From Phycisphaeraceae bacterium (lineage in GTDB: Bacteria; Planctomycetota; Phycisphaerae; Phycisphaerales; SM1A02), in NCBI GenBank assembly GCA_019636755.1, contig JAHBWZ010000001.1, positions 124,001 through 188,000 of the forward strand: 64,000 nt of DNA. The letters are read 5' to 3'. The translations under genes and the position numbers were made by a program. Below the pieces are notes generated by a model, which made no database searches, was not told the origin of the DNA, and saw only the letters and a list, made by a program, of their open reading frames with translations. This document shows positions 4,973 to 64,000 of the stretch, in pieces (within the stretch, counting starts at the first letter, position 1; the number at the start of each line of letters is the position of its first letter).

Positions 4973-6424
4973 TCAGCCGCCGCCCGGTCCCGCGGCGCCC
5001 GGCTCCGTCATTCCGCGGGCATCGAGCAGCCGCTCCAGCCGATCCGCCGGCAGCAGGCCCTGCGCAAGCACTTCCTCGCGGACGGTGCGCCCGCTGCGGA
5101 ACGCCGCCTTCGCCACGGCCGCCGCGGCGTCGTACCCGATCGCCGGCGCGAGGCTGGTGCACATCATGAGGCTCTTCTCCACCATGCCCTCGGCGACGGC
5201 GCGGTTGACCTCCAGGTCCTCCAGGCATCGCTCGACGAACATCGTGCAGCCGTTCGCAAGCAGGTCGATGCTCTCCAGCAGCGCGTCCGCCATGACCGGC
5301 ATCGCGACGTTCAGTTCGAGGAGAGAGCCGATGCCGCCCAGTCCACCCAGCGTCACCACGGCGTCGTTCCCGATGACGCGGCACGCGATCTGCATGATCG
5401 ACTCGCAGATGACGGGATTGACCTTGCCCGGCATGATCGAGGAGCCCGGCTGCGTGGCCGGCAGGGAGAGTTCGAAGAGCCCGCAGCGTGGTCCCGATCC
5501 CAGCCAGCGCAGGTCGTTGGCGATCTTCGACAGGCTCACCGCGATCGTCCGGAGTTCTCCCGATGCCGCGACGACGCAGTCGCGCGTCGCCTGCGCCTCG
5601 AAGTGATTGTCCGCCTCCGCGAAGCGGATCCCGGTCGCCTTCGACAGTCGCTTCGCGACGTCGCCGCCGAAGCGCGGATGGGTATTGATGCCCGTCCCGA
5701 CCGCGGTCCCGCCGATCGGCAGGTTCCCGGCCAGGACCTCCATCGCCCGCGCCGCGCGTCCGACGGCCAGGCGCATCTGCGCTTCATACCCGGAGAACTC
5801 CTGCCCCAGGCGGATGGGCGTCGCGTCCATGAGATGGGTGCGGCCGATCTTGACGATCCGGTCCCACCGCTTCGCCTTGCGGCCGAGGGTTCTGGCGATC
5901 CGCTCCAGCGCGGGCACGAGCCGCGTCCGGATCCGGACGGCGCCGGCGACCTGCATCGCGGTGGGGAACGTGTCATTCGACGACTGCCCCATGTTGACGT
6001 GATCGTTGGGATGGACGGGATCACGGCTCCCGATCGGCTTTCCGGCGCGCCGGCAGGCGAGGTTCGACAGCACCTCGTTCACATTCATGTTCGTGCTGGT
6101 GCCTGAGCCGGTCTGGTAGACGTCGACCGGGAAGTGCTCCATCCAGGACGTGGTCGTCGCCGCATCGCCCAGACCCGCCAGCACCTCGTCACATGCGCCG
6201 CGGATGAACTCCAGACGTTCGACGTCGAGCAGGCGCAGACCGGCGTTCGCCTCCGCGCACGCCTTCTTGAGCAGCACGAACGCGGCGATGACGGGCGGCG
6301 ACACGGGTCGCCCGGAGACCGGGAAATTGAGCACCGCGCGCTGCGTCGTCGCGCCGTAGAGCACGTGTGCCGGCACCACCATCTCGCCCATCGAGTCCTT
6401 CTCGATCCTCGTCTTCTTCGCCAT
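4973..6424 (-). CDS. fumC: Fumarate hydratase, class II
   Basis: This 483-residue enzyme interconverts fumarate and L-malate in the citric acid cycle and acts in the cytosol as a homotetramer. Diagnostic segments are GSGTSTNMNVNEV, the active-site segment GRTHLMDATP with H197, and the superfamily signature GSSIMPGKVN at 327-336. The length is close to the usual 460-470. The ATG at 6424 is preceded by GAAGGAC. The longer frame upstream has no family similarity. A TACCAT box about 85 bases upstream could be its promoter. The gene appears to stand alone between the pseudopilin set and the hydrolase. Confidence 0.95.
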   Translation of the reverse strand: MAKKTRIEKDSMGEMVVPAHVLYGATTQRAVLNFPVSGRPVSPPVIAAFVLLKKACAEANAGLRLLDVERLEFIRGACDEVLAGLGDAATTTSWMEHFPVDVYQTGSGTSTNMNVNEVLSNLACRRAGKPIGSRDPVHPNDHVNMGQSSNDTFPTAMQVAGAVRIRTRLVPALERIARTLGRKAKRWDRIVKIGRTHLMDATPIRLGQEFSGYEAQMRLAVGRAARAMEVLAGNLPIGGTAVGTGINTHPRFGGDVAKRLSKATGIRFAEADNHFEAQATRDCVVAASGELRTIAVSLSKIANDLRWLGSGPRCGLFELSLPATQPGSSIMPGKVNPVICESIMQIACRVIGNDAVVTLGGLGGIGSLLELNVAMPVMADALLESIDLLANGCTMFVERCLEDLEVNRAVAEGMVEKSLMMCTSLAPAIGYDAAAAVAKAAFRSGRTVREEVLAQGLLPADRLERLLDARGMTEPGAAGPGGG

Positions 6425-59013: not shown

Positions 59014-60641
59014 GACGCGACCGGCTCCCGGGGCGCCGGGAACGCGGCCTCCGCGAGATCAATCGCACGTCCGAGCGCCGCGGCCTTGCTGACGGTCTCC
59101 TCGAATTCCCGTGCGGGAACGGACTCGGCCACGATGCCCGCACCCGCCTGGATGTCATAGCGCCAGGTGCCGTCCGTGCCGTCGGCCCGGTGCGAGCGCG
59201 GCGCCGGATCGCCCTCGACCGGCACGACGATGGTCCGCAGCGCAATGGCGATATCCATGTCTCCGCTGAACGCGACCTGCCCGACCCCGCCGGCATACGG
59301 GCCGCGGCGGACCGGTTCCAGTTCATCGATGATCTGGATCGCGCGAACCTTCGGCGCACCGCTGACGGTCCCGACCGGGAGCGTGTGGCGCAGCAGGTCC
59401 CACGCGTCGCACGCCGGCGCCAGCCGGCCGGTCACCGTGGACGAGAGATGCATCACGTGACTGTAGCGTTCGACCTCCATGACGCGCTCGACGCGGATCG
59501 AGCCCGGCTCGCACACCCGGCCCAGGTCATTGCGGCCGAGATCGACGAGCATGATGTGCTCCGCGCACTCCTTCTGATCCGCGCGCAGTTCGCGTTCCAG
59601 CGCTGCATCCTCCGCCGCATCGGCGCCGCGCGGCCGCGTCCCCGCGAGCGGACGGTTGATGACGAGCCTGCCCTCCGCCCGGCACAGGATCTCCGGGCTC
59701 GCGCCGATCAGGATCGTGCCCGGACCCTGGACGTAGTACATGTAGGGACTCGGGTTGACCACGCGCAGCGCCCGATAGACATCGAACGGGTCCGCGGACG
59801 ACTGTCGCGTGCAGCGCCGGCTGAGCACGACCTGGAAGATGTCGCCCGCGGTGATGTACGCGCGGGCCCGCTGCACGATCCCCTCGAATGCGTCCTGTCC
59901 GAGCGTCGACGCCTTCGGGACCACCGGCCGCCGGGCGGTGTCGAGCATGATGGAACCGGCCCGGAGCACCGGTCCGGGCGTCTCCAGGCGCTCGACGAGT
60001 TCATCGAGCTGCGCCGTGCCCGCGCGCCACGCCGCATCCGTGGACGGAAAGTCCGCCGGCCGGACCGTCACGCACGCGTGCAGGATCTTCGTCGCGTGAT
60101 CGAAGACCGCGACCTTGTCGTACAGTCCGAACGCGAGATCCGGCAGTCCGCGGTCATCGGTCGGCGCCTGCGCGAAGGGCAGTTTCTCAGGCTCGAGGTA
60201 CCGGACGGTGTCGAAGCCGGCCCATCCGACCCAGCCGCCGAGAAACCGCGGAAGCGAGGGGCCGGGATCGGCGACGACACCGGCCGGCGTCCAGGATGCG
60301 GCGAGCGTGCGCAGCGCGGCCAGCGGATCGTTGCCGGGGAGGCGCCGGATCGCGCCGGTCCGGTGATCACACAGATGCACCCGGGGTCCGTGCGCCGTCA
60401 GCAGCAGCGCGGGACGTGCGCCGAGATGCGAGTACCGACCCGTCTGGTCCCCGCCGACCACGGACTCGCAGAGGAAGGACGGCTGCGTCCGCGCATCGAC
60501 GGCCACCAGGCGCCGGTACGCCGCCACCGGCGTCACCTGGTCGCTCAGGAGTCGTCTGACGAGTGTGACCGCAGGCGTTCGAGAGGCGACGTCGGCGAAT
60601 GCGACGCGGTTGAGTCCGTGCACCTGGGTATCGTCGCGCAT
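59010..60641 (-). CDS. trpE: Anthranilate synthase component I
   Basis: The 543-residue chorismate-using enzyme has the N-terminal regulatory domain (CESVVGGDQTGRYSHLG, containing the ES element linked to tryptophan feedback) and the catalytic domain with GDIFQVVLSRR, NPSPYMYYV, ASPEIL, RPLAGTRPRG, DLGRNDLGRV, LPVGTVSGAPKVRA and the C-terminal IQAGAGIVAESVP. It makes anthranilate from chorismate with glutamine supplied through TrpG, which is not nearby. The start at 60641 gives a normal N-terminus. No tryptophan-rich leader peptide is visible upstream. Its end overlaps the AsmA-like gene. Confidence 0.93.
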   Translation of the reverse strand: MRDDTQVHGLNRVAFADVASRTPAVTLVRRLLSDQVTPVAAYRRLVAVDARTQPSFLCESVVGGDQTGRYSHLGARPALLLTAHGPRVHLCDHRTGAIRRLPGNDPLAALRTLAASWTPAGVVADPGPSLPRFLGGWVGWAGFDTVRYLEPEKLPFAQAPTDDRGLPDLAFGLYDKVAVFDHATKILHACVTVRPADFPSTDAAWRAGTAQLDELVERLETPGPVLRAGSIMLDTARRPVVPKASTLGQDAFEGIVQRARAYITAGDIFQVVLSRRCTRQSSADPFDVYRALRVVNPSPYMYYVQGPGTILIGASPEILCRAEGRLVINRPLAGTRPRGADAAEDAALERELRADQKECAEHIMLVDLGRNDLGRVCEPGSIRVERVMEVERYSHVMHLSSTVTGRLAPACDAWDLLRHTLPVGTVSGAPKVRAIQIIDELEPVRRGPYAGGVGQVAFSGDMDIAIALRTIVVPVEGDPAPRSHRADGTDGTWRYDIQAGAGIVAESVPAREFEETVSKAAALGRAIDLAEAAFPAPREPVAS

Positions 60642-60800
60642 GGGACCCGGGATCGGCAACCCCGCCGCGCGGCTGCACCGGGTTCCGGGACCGGTGCGTC
60701 CGATCATTGCTTCGGTGCGGGACAGATCGTCCTGCCGCGGGAACCCGCAGGCGGTGCCGGGGCAGCGATTCCGTCGACGGACGGCTTCTCGCCGGACGGA

Positions 60801-60806
60801 TAGACT
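60801..60806 (+). promoter_or_regulatory. Putative -10 box (TAGACT) for the LolD/MacB-type ATPase
   Basis: TAGACT ends 7 bases before the TTG at 60814, the same arrangement as TACACT and the TTG start of paaJ. Confidence 0.45.
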
Positions 60807-60813
60807 CCGCCCC

Positions 60814-61578
60814 TTGTCGCCGCCGACCTCCCATGCCCGTCCCGGCACCGACCCCGCGCCGCCTGCCGGCGGGGTGACGTCCGACCAGCCGCCCGTCGCC
60901 GATCTGCGCGGGATCTGCCGCACGTACTACAAGCCCGACGGGTCCGTCCTGGTGGAAGCGCTGCGCCCCATCGACCTGGTGGTGCCGCGCGGACAGTACC
61001 TGGCGATCATGGGCGCGTCGGGCTCGGGGAAGAGCACGCTGATGAACCTTCTGGGCTGCCTGGACCGGCCCACCGCCGGTCGCTACCTGCTCGCGGGCCG
61101 GGATGTCGCGTCGATGGACGACGACGAGGTCAGCCGGATCCGCGGCGAACAGATCGGGTTCGTCTTCCAGGCGTTCAACCTGATCAGCGAACTCACGATC
61201 GTCGAGAACGTCGAAGTCCCGCTGTTCTACCAGGGCGTTCCGCGCGGCGAGCGCCGCCGCCGCGCGATCGCCACCCTCGAGCACGTGGGGCTGGGTGATC
61301 GGCTCGGGCACAGGCCGAAGGAACTCTCCGGCGGGCAGCAGCAGCGGGTCGCCATCGCGCGGGCGCTCGTCACCGACCCGTCGATCATCATGGCCGACGA
61401 ACCCACGGGCAATCTCGACTCGGCGACCGGCAAGGCGATTCTCGCGCTGATCGAGGAACTGCACGCGCGCGGGATGACGATCATCATGGTCACGCATGAC
61501 ACCGCGATCGCATCGCAGTGCCAGCGGATCATCCGCCTGCGCGACGGCGTCATCGAATCCGACGACATCGTCCGATGA
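60814..61578 (+). CDS. LolD/MacB-type ABC transporter ATP-binding protein
   Basis: The protein of about 254 residues has Walker A GASGSGKST, Q-loop VFQAFNLI, the signature LSGGQQQRVAIARAL, Walker B IIMADEPTGNLD and MVTHDTAIA. This is the LolD/MacB/FtsE group, which works with FtsX-like permeases in lipoprotein release or export. No permease gene is beside it; trpE lies upstream (divergent) and ruvC downstream (convergent). I choose TTG at 60814 because of the -10 box; GTG at 60874 is the alternative and leaves the whole ATPase domain intact. Confidence 0.85.
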   Translation: MSPPTSHARPGTDPAPPAGGVTSDQPPVADLRGICRTYYKPDGSVLVEALRPIDLVVPRGQYLAIMGASGSGKSTLMNLLGCLDRPTAGRYLLAGRDVASMDDDEVSRIRGEQIGFVFQAFNLISELTIVENVEVPLFYQGVPRGERRRRAIATLEHVGLGDRLGHRPKELSGGQQQRVAIARALVTDPSIIMADEPTGNLDSATGKAILALIEELHARGMTIIMVTHDTAIASQCQRIIRLRDGVIESDDIVR

Positions 61579-61599
61579 CCGCACCGCCCGCCGGATCGA

Positions 61600-62112
61600 T
61601 CAGCGAACCAGCGCCGGTGTCCGATGGCGACCCGGCACAGCGGATCGCCGGCCCGCGCACAGCGCCACAGCGATCGCGTCGGCGACGTCTGACGGCTCCG
61701 GCATCGCCGCGAGACCGAGTTGCGCCTGCACCGCGGCCTGCATCTGCACCTTGACGGCGTTGCCACGCCCCGCCACGGCGCGCTTCACCTCGGCCGGCGC
61801 GAGTTCCGCGAGGTCGAGGCCCGCCCGCGCCGCCGCCAGCAGGATGACGCCTCGCGCGTGTCCCATCAGGATCGCGGTGCGTGCATGGCGGACGTGGCTG
61901 AAGAGCGACTCCACCGCGACAAGGTCCGGGCCGAGTTCCAGGACGATCGCGCCGAGTTCACGATCCAGTTCCAGCAGGCGCTGCGGCAGCGGACGCCCCC
62001 GCCGGAGCCGGATCACGCCGGCCTCGATCAGCCGGGGCGCGGCGGGTATCGTGAGGTCCACACATCCGTAGCCGGTCCGTTCGAGACCGGGATCGACTCC
62101 GAGGACGCGCAT
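61600..62112 (-). CDS. ruvC: Holliday junction endodeoxyribonuclease RuvC
   Basis: The 170-residue nuclease resolves Holliday junctions with RuvAB. Catalytic acids match E. coli RuvC in spacing: D7 (LGVDPG), E68 (AVESLFS), D142 and D145 (SDVADAIAVALC). Length is typical. It lies 25 bases after the YdjY-domain lipoprotein gene on the same strand, so the two may be co-transcribed. ruvA and ruvB are not nearby. GGAG precedes the ATG at 62112. Confidence 0.95.
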   Translation of the reverse strand: MRVLGVDPGLERTGYGCVDLTIPAAPRLIEAGVIRLRRGRPLPQRLLELDRELGAIVLELGPDLVAVESLFSHVRHARTAILMGHARGVILLAAARAGLDLAELAPAEVKRAVAGRGNAVKVQMQAAVQAQLGLAAMPEPSDVADAIAVALCAGRRSAVPGRHRTPALVR

Positions 62113-62137
62113 GCAGGCTCCATCGAGGGTTATCCGG

Positions 62138-63127
62138 TCACTCCGGACCCTCGGCTGTGGCTTCATCGACCGCGCCGCCCTCCGGGCGCCAGCGGCGCAG
62201 CACCAGTCGCAGCGGTGTGCCCGGAGGCGGCAGGGCGCTGCGGCGAACCATCCACTGTGGCGGCTGGACGTCCGCCTGGTCGGCATAGACCTCGCTGAAC
62301 CCGATGACTTCGTCGCCGAACGTCACCAGGCCGACGAGTGAGCCCGTGGCATCCGCGAGATACAGGGCATCGGGACTGCTTCCGGGCCGGACCACGCGGG
62401 ATCCACCGAAGATCCATGGCCGGCGCGGAAACGGCCGGCCGGCGTCCGCGTCGGTGATCCACGCGGACGCCGGCACATCATGTCGATGTCCCGCGTCGTC
62501 CAGCCATTGGAATCGAACGTCCAGCGGCGTCCCCTGCGGCGGATCGAAGACGAACCGCGGCGGAGCGCCGGCATCGTCCCGGCCAACCTCTTCCCACCGG
62601 CCCGGGCGCCCGGGTTCGAAGCCTGCCAGCAGCAGGACGGCATGGACCTGGCTCGGCACGACATCGGCGACGACCAGCGACTCGTGCTCACGCGTCCCGG
62701 GCGTACAGGCGATCTGCTCCAGCCAGTCTTCCGAGTGGCAGACGATCGCATCGACCTCGACCCAGCGCGCCACCGCCGGGCCCGCGTCCGGGGATCGTCG
62801 GGCGCGCGGGTCATCCGGCGCTCCGTCGGGCCCGCTGGTCCCGTCGGGCCCCCCGAGCCCTCCAAGGTAGACCCCGGGATAGATCATGCGGACGGCGCCA
62901 GCCGCCGCTGGCGGCCGCGCCGCACTCGCGCCAGGGTGCAGGGCCGGTCGGACATCGCGCGCGGGCGGCTCGACCGCGGGCCAGGGCGCCGGTGGCGGGC
63001 CCATCGCCCCATGCGGATCGGCCGGCGCGGCATGACCCCGGCACCCGGCTCCGGTCAGAAGCAGGATCGACGCCATCGCGGCGACGGCGCGGGCAGGATT
63101 TCGGCGGAATCGCGTCGAGGCGGGCAT
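62138..63127 (-). CDS. YdjY-domain lipoprotein
   Basis: The 329-residue protein has a lipoprotein signal (AVAAMASILLLTGAGC, with C29 as the lipidated residue), a proline/alanine-rich linker, and from about residue 90 a YdjY-like domain (VEVDAIVCHSEDWLEQIAC, EHESLVVADVVPSQVHAVLLLAG). Such proteins are frequent in planctomycetes and of unknown function. The start at 63127 yields a standard lipobox; the longer frame is not needed. A promoter-terminator unit lies 110-245 bases upstream on the same strand. ruvC follows. Confidence 0.75.
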   Translation of the reverse strand: MPASTRFRRNPARAVAAMASILLLTGAGCRGHAAPADPHGAMGPPPAPWPAVEPPARDVRPALHPGASAARPPAAAGAVRMIYPGVYLGGLGGPDGTSGPDGAPDDPRARRSPDAGPAVARWVEVDAIVCHSEDWLEQIACTPGTREHESLVVADVVPSQVHAVLLLAGFEPGRPGRWEEVGRDDAGAPPRFVFDPPQGTPLDVRFQWLDDAGHRHDVPASAWITDADAGRPFPRRPWIFGGSRVVRPGSSPDALYLADATGSLVGLVTFGDEVIGFSEVYADQADVQPPQWMVRRSALPPPGTPLRLVLRRWRPEGGAVDEATAEGPE

Positions 63128-63237
63128 GCCGGGGCCCACGATACCGGCGCGTACCGGTGCGCGTCGTGTCACCGGCGGATCCGAGGGCACCCGGCGCTGA
63201 CGCATCGCCGCCGCGGACCGCGCACGAAGACCGCGCA

Positions 63238-63277
63238 AGAAAAAGGCCCGGCAGAAACCGAAGTTTCATGCCGAGCC
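63238..63277 (-). terminator. Intrinsic terminator, minus strand
   Basis: On the minus strand a stem of GGCTCGGCA with TGCCGGGCC (one G-T pair) continues into GAAAC with GTTTC around a TTCG tetraloop and is followed by TTTTTCTT. It is the best terminator in the window and lies upstream of the lipoprotein gene. Confidence 0.85.
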
Positions 63278-63338
63278 CTTCCGGGGGTCAGATGGGAGAG
63301 TCGCTGGTGGCCGCGGTCAGACCGTGTCACCAAGAACT
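63238..63338 (-). ncRNA. Candidate small RNA or attenuated leader
   Basis: The roughly 100 bases between a consensus-like promoter and an intrinsic terminator on the minus strand contain no convincing gene. The first half can fold as TTGGTG with CACCAG enclosing CGGT with ACCG. The second half is the terminator stem. It could be a stand-alone small RNA, or a leader controlling the lipoprotein-ruvC genes downstream. No match to SRP, 6S or tmRNA signatures was found. Short frames inside it look like noise. Confidence 0.45.
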
Positions 63339-63344
63339 GTCCGA

Positions 63345-63372
63345 AGGATACCCGGAATCGCGCGGGAGTCAA
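63345..63372 (-). promoter_or_regulatory. Sigma-70-like promoter (TTGACT, 16 bp, TATCCT)
   Basis: TTGACT at 63372-63367 and TATCCT at 63350-63345 on the minus strand, spaced 16 bp. It is the only site in the window with a good -35 and -10 pair. The expected transcript start is near 63338. Confidence 0.65.
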
Positions 63373-63548
63373 GCCGGGTGATTCATTCCACCGGGCATCC
63401 ACCTCCGGACAGGCCCCGTCCGCCGCCCCCCCCTGCCAGCATCGCGCCACACCGCCGCGCCGTCGCCGCCGCGGCTATCGTCGCGCGATCGCGTTGCACC
63501 ACACCGTCCGGCCCGTCGCCGTCGCCCGGTGACGCGTCTCGAAGTCCC

Positions 63549-64000
63549 ATGACGCCGTCCCCCGTCCCAAGCCTGTGCCTGACCCGTCGCGTGCGGTTCT
63601 CGGTCGCGCTCGGTGCCGATCGAGCGCCATTCGACCCCGCCCAGCCACGATCGAACGCCTATGCGGGCTGGCCGTCGACCGACCTGCTGGCGCTCCCGGT
63701 CGACCTCGAAGTGGCGTGCACCGGCCGGGCGGATCCCGAGAGCGGATACCTGGTGAGCATCGCGGAGATCGACCAGGCCGTGCGTGAGGTCGCGATTCCG
63801 CTCTTCGCGGACGCGTCGCGCGCCGCCGTGCCACCGCACCCTGCGATCCTGCTGCAGACGCTGATGCCGGACACGCAGCGCGCCCTGGCCGGACGACTCG
63901 ACCGGGTCACCCTGCACGTGACGCCGCACTTCTCACTCACCCTCGAAGCCTCCGACATGACGCACGTCCTGCTCTGCCAGCACTTCGATTTTGCCGCGGC
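63549..64000 (+). CDS. 6-pyruvoyl-tetrahydropterin synthase (PTPS/QueD)-like protein, partial
   Basis: The frame runs off the right edge after 150 codons. The beginning (LCLTRRVRFSVALG) and the segment LPVDLEVACTGRADPESGYLVSIAEIDQAVRE follow the T-fold pattern of PTPS/QueD proteins, where DPxTGMVxD is typical. The zinc-binding histidines are not seen: FSAAH reads FSVAL and the HGHNY site is replaced by a STDLLAL segment. The N-terminal half here is therefore unlikely to make 6-carboxytetrahydropterin in the usual way; further domains may follow outside the window. Confidence 0.55.
   Translation, partial: MTPSPVPSLCLTRRVRFSVALGADRAPFDPAQPRSNAYAGWPSTDLLALPVDLEVACTGRADPESGYLVSIAEIDQAVREVAIPLFADASRAAVPPHPAILLQTLMPDTQRALAGRLDRVTLHVTPHFSLTLEASDMTHVLLCQHFDFAA

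Follow-up and report, generated by a model that had tools for sequence, protein, structure and literature searches.

A candidate small-RNA gene upstream of ydjY and its conserved family in Phycisphaerales

The locus and its neighboring genes

The window, that is, the whole stretch of 64,000 nucleotides that was analyzed from a Phycisphaeraceae bacterium, carries near its end a compact arrangement of a promoter, a predicted structured RNA and a terminator on the minus strand. Two protein-coding genes follow on the same strand. The features are as follows.

63367 to 63372, minus strand: -35 element TTGACT, found by promoter scan
63345 to 63350, minus strand: -10 element TATCCT after a 16-nt spacer; it scores 9.8, where shuffles of such regions have a median of 5.4
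63237 to 63337, minus strand: predicted small RNA of about 101 nt, with a putative start 7 nt past the -10 element
63300 to 63337, minus strand: 5' hairpin whose sequence is not shared from one genus to another; it is absent in many relatives, where the RNA would begin close to the box
63283 to 63296, minus strand: predicted single-stranded box CCCATCTGA-CCCCC; the family consensus is UnAcYUUG-CCCCC
63243 to 63282, minus strand: intrinsic terminator hairpin GGAAGGGCUCGGCA..UGCCGGGCCUU with a UUCG loop and a covarying apical stem
63237 to 63244, minus strand: terminator U-run, read from the sequence, with the last T at about 63237
62141 to 63127, minus strand: gene for a YdjY-domain lipoprotein (NF040466, E 5.5e-35), given without its stop codon at 62138-62140
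61603 to 62112, minus strand: ruvC (PF02075, E 2.7e-35), whose orientation varies among relatives

The promoter, TTGACT-16-TATCCT at 63372-63345, matches the consensus at 9 of 12 positions. The first-pass annotation had called it rare in the window, and this holds: the scan found one such promoter in 60000-64000 (0.1 in shuffles) and one further promoter of this kind in 1-60000, giving two in 64 kb. On the minus strand the -10 element is followed by about 50 bases with a hairpin, by CCCATCTGACCCCC, and then by GGAAGGGCTCGGCATGAAAC-TTCG-GTTTCTGCCGGGCC and the T-run. The terminator with a TTCG loop and T-run that had been noticed 3' of the promoter was recovered by both the terminator scan and the predicted fold. 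Its core at 63262-63247 is the only terminator-like site in 60000-64000, against 0.4 in shuffles, and the full hairpin extends beyond this core. The 110-base RNA from 63345 to 63236 has a predicted folding energy of -48.2 kcal/mol, with a z score of -4.1 relative to dinucleotide shuffles, and forms a UUCG-capped stem with the U-run and a separate 5' hairpin.

The predicted transcript of about 100 bases had been said to match no known RNA class. A scan with Rfam 15 agrees, with no match at gathering score across the window and, for 15 homologous loci, none even when E values as high as 1 were allowed. A coding reading of the hairpin was considered and rejected. The window has an ATG at a plausible distance after GGAAGG; of the 91 distinct cores of the GGGCTC type, however, just 21 have ATG at this triplet, and the full set of 124 distinct cores varies in length between 41 and 49 nt.

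The identities of the two downstream genes, a YdjY lipoprotein and ruvC, are borne out by NF040466 and PF02075, respectively; no Pfam family matches the YdjY-domain protein. In the family of the window genome, the RNA usually has a divergent PTPS-family gene on one side and ydjY on the other. The PTPS-family gene is a conserved upstream neighbor in much of that family; in the window it occupies 63549-64000 and is cut by the window end, and PF01242 matches over the full gene.

Conservation, covariation and taxonomic range

A blast search with 63230-63380 found matches in 29 of 61 relatives, and the alignments span mainly the terminator and the box that precedes it. Conservation in relatives excludes a chance feature. 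Among the 30 copies in the alignment, CCCCCG, AAGGGCTCG and CGGGCCT never vary, and the apical stem shows two-sided changes in 6 of 14 pairs. The covariation score is 0.335 against 0.145 in shuffles, with 45 two-sided cells against 12.6. The first-pass annotation had proposed a covariance search and named missing compensatory changes as grounds for giving up a structured RNA; the search was run and such changes are present. The RNA therefore has what a small RNA of this type should have at its 3' end, an intrinsic terminator of its own with a conserved, covarying stem.

Of the 301 genomes searched in the order, 165 have a match to the covariance model R1. Counted by listed rows, 108 of these belong to the family of the window genome and 57 to other families of the order. 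Nearly every matched genome of the window's own family has a single copy, and the gene neighborhood is shared in 17 of 20 contexts. At least nine genomes of this family have no R1 match, and these include every one of the four listed for genus g35. In wider samples 36 of 298 genomes of the class and 16 of 392 of the phylum matched, every one from the same order; no listed match lies outside Phycisphaerales in either sample. Scanning named genomes for the motif pattern gave at least 120 stretches, and the titles, available for 80 among the matches listed, are mostly those of Phycisphaerales or other Planctomycetota. The ZRK34 chromosome (CP050848.1), from a strain of the Phycisphaerales group, is one that carries a match. 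Three pattern matches, one in Treponema (L214) and two in clostridial records (L231, L235), were judged from their sequence to be chance hits. The candidate RNA gene is a member of an order-wide family in Phycisphaerales (Planctomycetota) that is absent from Rfam.

Promoters and RNA size across the family

The collected sites number 168, many of them from close relatives and hence non-independent. The promoter test used 166 of them; the chance match in Clostridia (L231) was dropped here and is still counted among the 168. A sigma-70 promoter score of at least 8 within 120 bases upstream was found in a fraction of 0.699 of these sites; the corresponding fraction is 0.134 for shuffles and 0.072 for reverse complements. 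The Mann-Whitney p value for sites against shuffles is about 3e-51, which is too small because the sites share kinship. An own promoter, as expected of a trans-encoded small RNA, is thus predicted both in the window and at the majority of the sites.

The spacing between the -10 element and the box is concentrated at 15-16 nt. With this spacing the minimal RNA would start near position -9 and be about 55-60 nt long. Longer leaders occur in 57 of 135 predicted transcripts, and 52 of these 57 have a hairpin of their own; the copy in the window is of the long-leader type.

The exposed box and the terminator base

The sites for the analysis of box conservation were selected by an exact CCCCCG[AG]AA followed by a terminator test, so the invariance of this pattern among them is by construction. 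Positions -9 to -1 lie outside the selection pattern and show the G-poor consensus UnAcYUUG. Less biased evidence comes from the blast loci: all 29 (L001-L029) meet the motif regular expression, and L030, a partial match of 24 bases, fails it. Among the 29 model matches that were read (L061-L089), L088 carries four Cs in the box; L090 was left out since its printed text lies away from its match.

Accessibility was predicted for 135 transcripts, namely those in which the promoter scores at least 7, a T-run can be detected and the leader is 3 nt or longer. Positions -9 to +4 are unpaired with a mean probability of 0.83-0.97, and GGAA is predicted to pair into the stem base opposite the U-run. 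In these predicted structures the box has the character of a conserved unpaired seed, as a trans-encoded, intrinsically terminated small RNA would. The box is also retained in paralogs in which the sequence of the terminator stem differs completely. Such a shared and, by folding models, exposed box points to an RNA that acts in trans.

Paralogs and multicopy genomes

The window genome itself has a second copy at C12:444302-444352, where the stem is wholly different and the box CCCCCGGAAG and the T-run are kept. Genomes of family f6 have up to 13 model matches each (E up to 0.05), with GGGCTCGG, GGGCGGCG, GCCCGGCG, GCGCCC and other stems after the box. In two-copy genomes one copy reads CCCCCGAAAG where the other has CCCCCGGAAG. 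One genus and similar records (L183, L213, L220, L259) have two RNA copies in opposite orientation; L109 (G018:C116) has a copy at 5000 on the plus strand and a second on the minus strand, and L059 has two copies in tandem. Genome G063 holds several near-identical copies at about 2.53-3.17 Mb of C1. They share the stem TGGCTCGG and resemble each other upstream as well, and their likeness suggests a recent duplication. Reading frames that look LacI-like and prepilin-like, as judged by eye, are among the neighbors of two of them.

Linkage to ydjY and ruvC

The ydjY gene accompanies the RNA in most of the family of the window genome. Over all 168 sites it lies directly downstream on the same strand at 87, in two GTDB families; it is on the opposite strand at 6 and absent within 3 kb at 66, and the other 9 sites sit too close to the end of a contig or locus. 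The RNA is intact at L105, L108 and L109, where the adjacent ydjY is missing. At L105 and L108 it faces a convergent ruvC, and at L150 it is convergent with an AcrB-type gene. At the other extreme, the gap between the RNA and ydjY narrows to 11 nt: the start codons of L094, L102 and L170, chosen heuristically, lie 11-13 nt past the T-run. This leaves no space for a second promoter, and ydjY is there probably transcribed by read-through. Since ruvC points the opposite way in most relatives, a leader role for ruvC is unlikely to be general.

The first-pass annotation had left two readings side by side, an independent small RNA and a terminator-controlled leader for both downstream genes. Copies without ydjY, convergent copies and dispersed paralogs favor the independent RNA. 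The leader reading survives in part for ydjY, which is probably transcribed to some extent by read-through, and is unlikely as a general rule for ruvC.

Search for targets and protein partners

Pairing between the box and the ydjY leader showed no excess in 87 loci (mean z 0.03). GGGGG, the complement of the C-run, is not enriched at ribosome-binding positions, where it occurs in a fraction of 0.0096 of 314 low-GC genes compared with 0.0065 in shuffled sequence; masking of ribosome-binding sites by the box is therefore unsupported. In the window genome (L362-L381), GGGGG before predicted starts is rarer than in shuffled sequence (0.0103 of 195 genes against 0.0379), and AGGAG is enriched just upstream of predicted starts. 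A search with CCGGGGGCA in six congeneric genomes found no recurrent related locus besides the RNA gene and a single 39-base match between two hits. Occurrences of TTCCGGGGG in five genomes were set aside as candidate sites, as the contexts that were read gave no sign of a ribosome-binding site and many looked coding by eye.

Hfq was found in none of 41 genomes by a search that matched 5 of 14 control genomes, and an Hfq-dependent small RNA, which needs Hfq in its host, was rejected on this count. CsrA matched in 40 of the 41 genomes, in one or two copies and usually two. Three partner searches were negative, and the analysis therefore commits to a small RNA with few targets and a secondary role as a ydjY leader.

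Relation to known RNAs

LhrC, RsaE, FsrA and IsrR are described as short RNAs of low-GC Gram-positive bacteria with an unpaired C-rich motif; LhrC is multicopy, and Hfq-independent action is reported for LhrC on lapB and for IsrR (PMC4132741, PMC9410917). The Phycisphaerales RNA resembles them in being short, in its predicted unpaired C-rich motif and in that it can be multicopy. It has no Rfam match and belongs to a different phylum. Motifs of the LhrC type block G-rich Shine-Dalgarno sites in AT-rich genomes, whereas GGGGG is unenriched at such sites in Phycisphaerales; membership in this class of C-rich, Shine-Dalgarno-blocking RNAs was rejected.

SmelA075 and SmelA099 of Rhizobiales have repeated CCUCCUCCC anti-Shine-Dalgarno loops and keep the C-rich motif while their stems diverge (PMC3927594). 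The Phycisphaerales RNA likewise keeps a C-rich motif despite stem divergence. Their motif, however, sits in several hairpin loops, whereas the Phycisphaerales RNA has a single box, placed between its 5' end and its terminator. The CCCCC of this box also differs from the anti-Shine-Dalgarno sequence. Terminator-controlled mRNA leaders also place a promoter, a structured RNA and a terminator right before a codirectional gene, but many copies of the Phycisphaerales RNA have no codirectional ydjY.

For the PVC group as a whole, PMC9029176 gives eight Rfam small-RNA families. Literature searches on small RNAs, non-coding RNAs and RNA-seq in Planctomycetes and Phycisphaerae, with subscription journals and preprints mostly or wholly outside their scope, returned no title on such an RNA. 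The family is previously unlisted and has no Rfam match.

Interpretation

The segment from 63372 to 63237 on the minus strand is probably a stand-alone, sigma-70-driven small RNA that acts in trans through its C5 box and allows some read-through into ydjY. The computed support for this reading consists of the promoter signal, conservation, covariation, predicted accessibility, paralogy and independence from neighboring genes. The sigma-70-type promoter would produce an RNA of about 55-105 nt, laid out as an optional 5' hairpin, a predicted single-stranded UnAcYUUG-CCCCC box and an intrinsic terminator with a GGAAG base. The exposed C5 box would then pair with G-runs in a few mRNAs without the help of Hfq, and the copy that precedes ydjY may in addition permit some transcription to continue into that gene.

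The same arrangement could instead be a cis-acting attenuator of ydjY, in which a regulated terminator sets how much transcription reaches the gene and the short RNA is simply the terminated product. The YdjY-domain gene directly 3' on the same strand at 87 of 168 sites, in two GTDB families, speaks for this, as do the three sites with a start codon 11-13 nt past the T-run. A cis-acting leader, however, should always lie upstream of and codirectional with its gene, and 87 of 168 falls short of that. The RNA persists without an adjacent ydjY (L105, L108, L109) or with ydjY convergent (six sites), and its paralogs are dispersed, some facing convergent genes. No conserved competing pairing was seen, and the 5' part is variable in length and sequence and often absent. 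Attenuation as the whole explanation is thus rather unlikely, though it deserves more weight than the remaining alternatives.

CsrA-sequestering RNAs carry several GGA motifs in loops. A related idea, that the conserved CCCCCGGAAG is bound by an RNA-binding protein, for instance CsrA, and that the RNA serves to titrate this protein, gains from the presence of CsrA in nearly all of the 41 genomes, usually in two copies, from the absence of Hfq and from the GGA within the box. But there is a single GGA at the box, located in the base of the terminator stem instead of a loop, one paralog type reads CCCCCGAAAG and has no GGA there, and CsrA leaves five invariant Cs unexplained; such a decoy is improbable. 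Several near-identical copies in one genome of 7.4 Mb (G063) might suggest a mere conserved terminator or a dispersed DNA repeat with no RNA function. This is very hard to reconcile with an own promoter upstream, with a box outside the hairpin that is conserved independently of the stem sequence, and with a family of the window genome that mostly has one copy per genome in a shared neighborhood (17 of 20 contexts), and we give it almost no credence.

Beyond the favored reading of a stand-alone small RNA, a broader one can be put forward tentatively. The family may represent a Phycisphaerales-specific form of global small-RNA regulation, in which around a dozen paralogs in some genomes carry a common C5-GGAA module on interchangeable stems. 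It is possible, if speculative, that a partner RNA or an RNA-binding protein reads this module in cells that are free of Hfq. Few small RNAs are listed for Planctomycetota (PMC9029176), and the family could be added to Rfam. Spread over a whole order, with a minimal length of about 55 nt, one conserved exposed module and no Hfq found, it offers an entry to post-transcriptional control in Planctomycetota.
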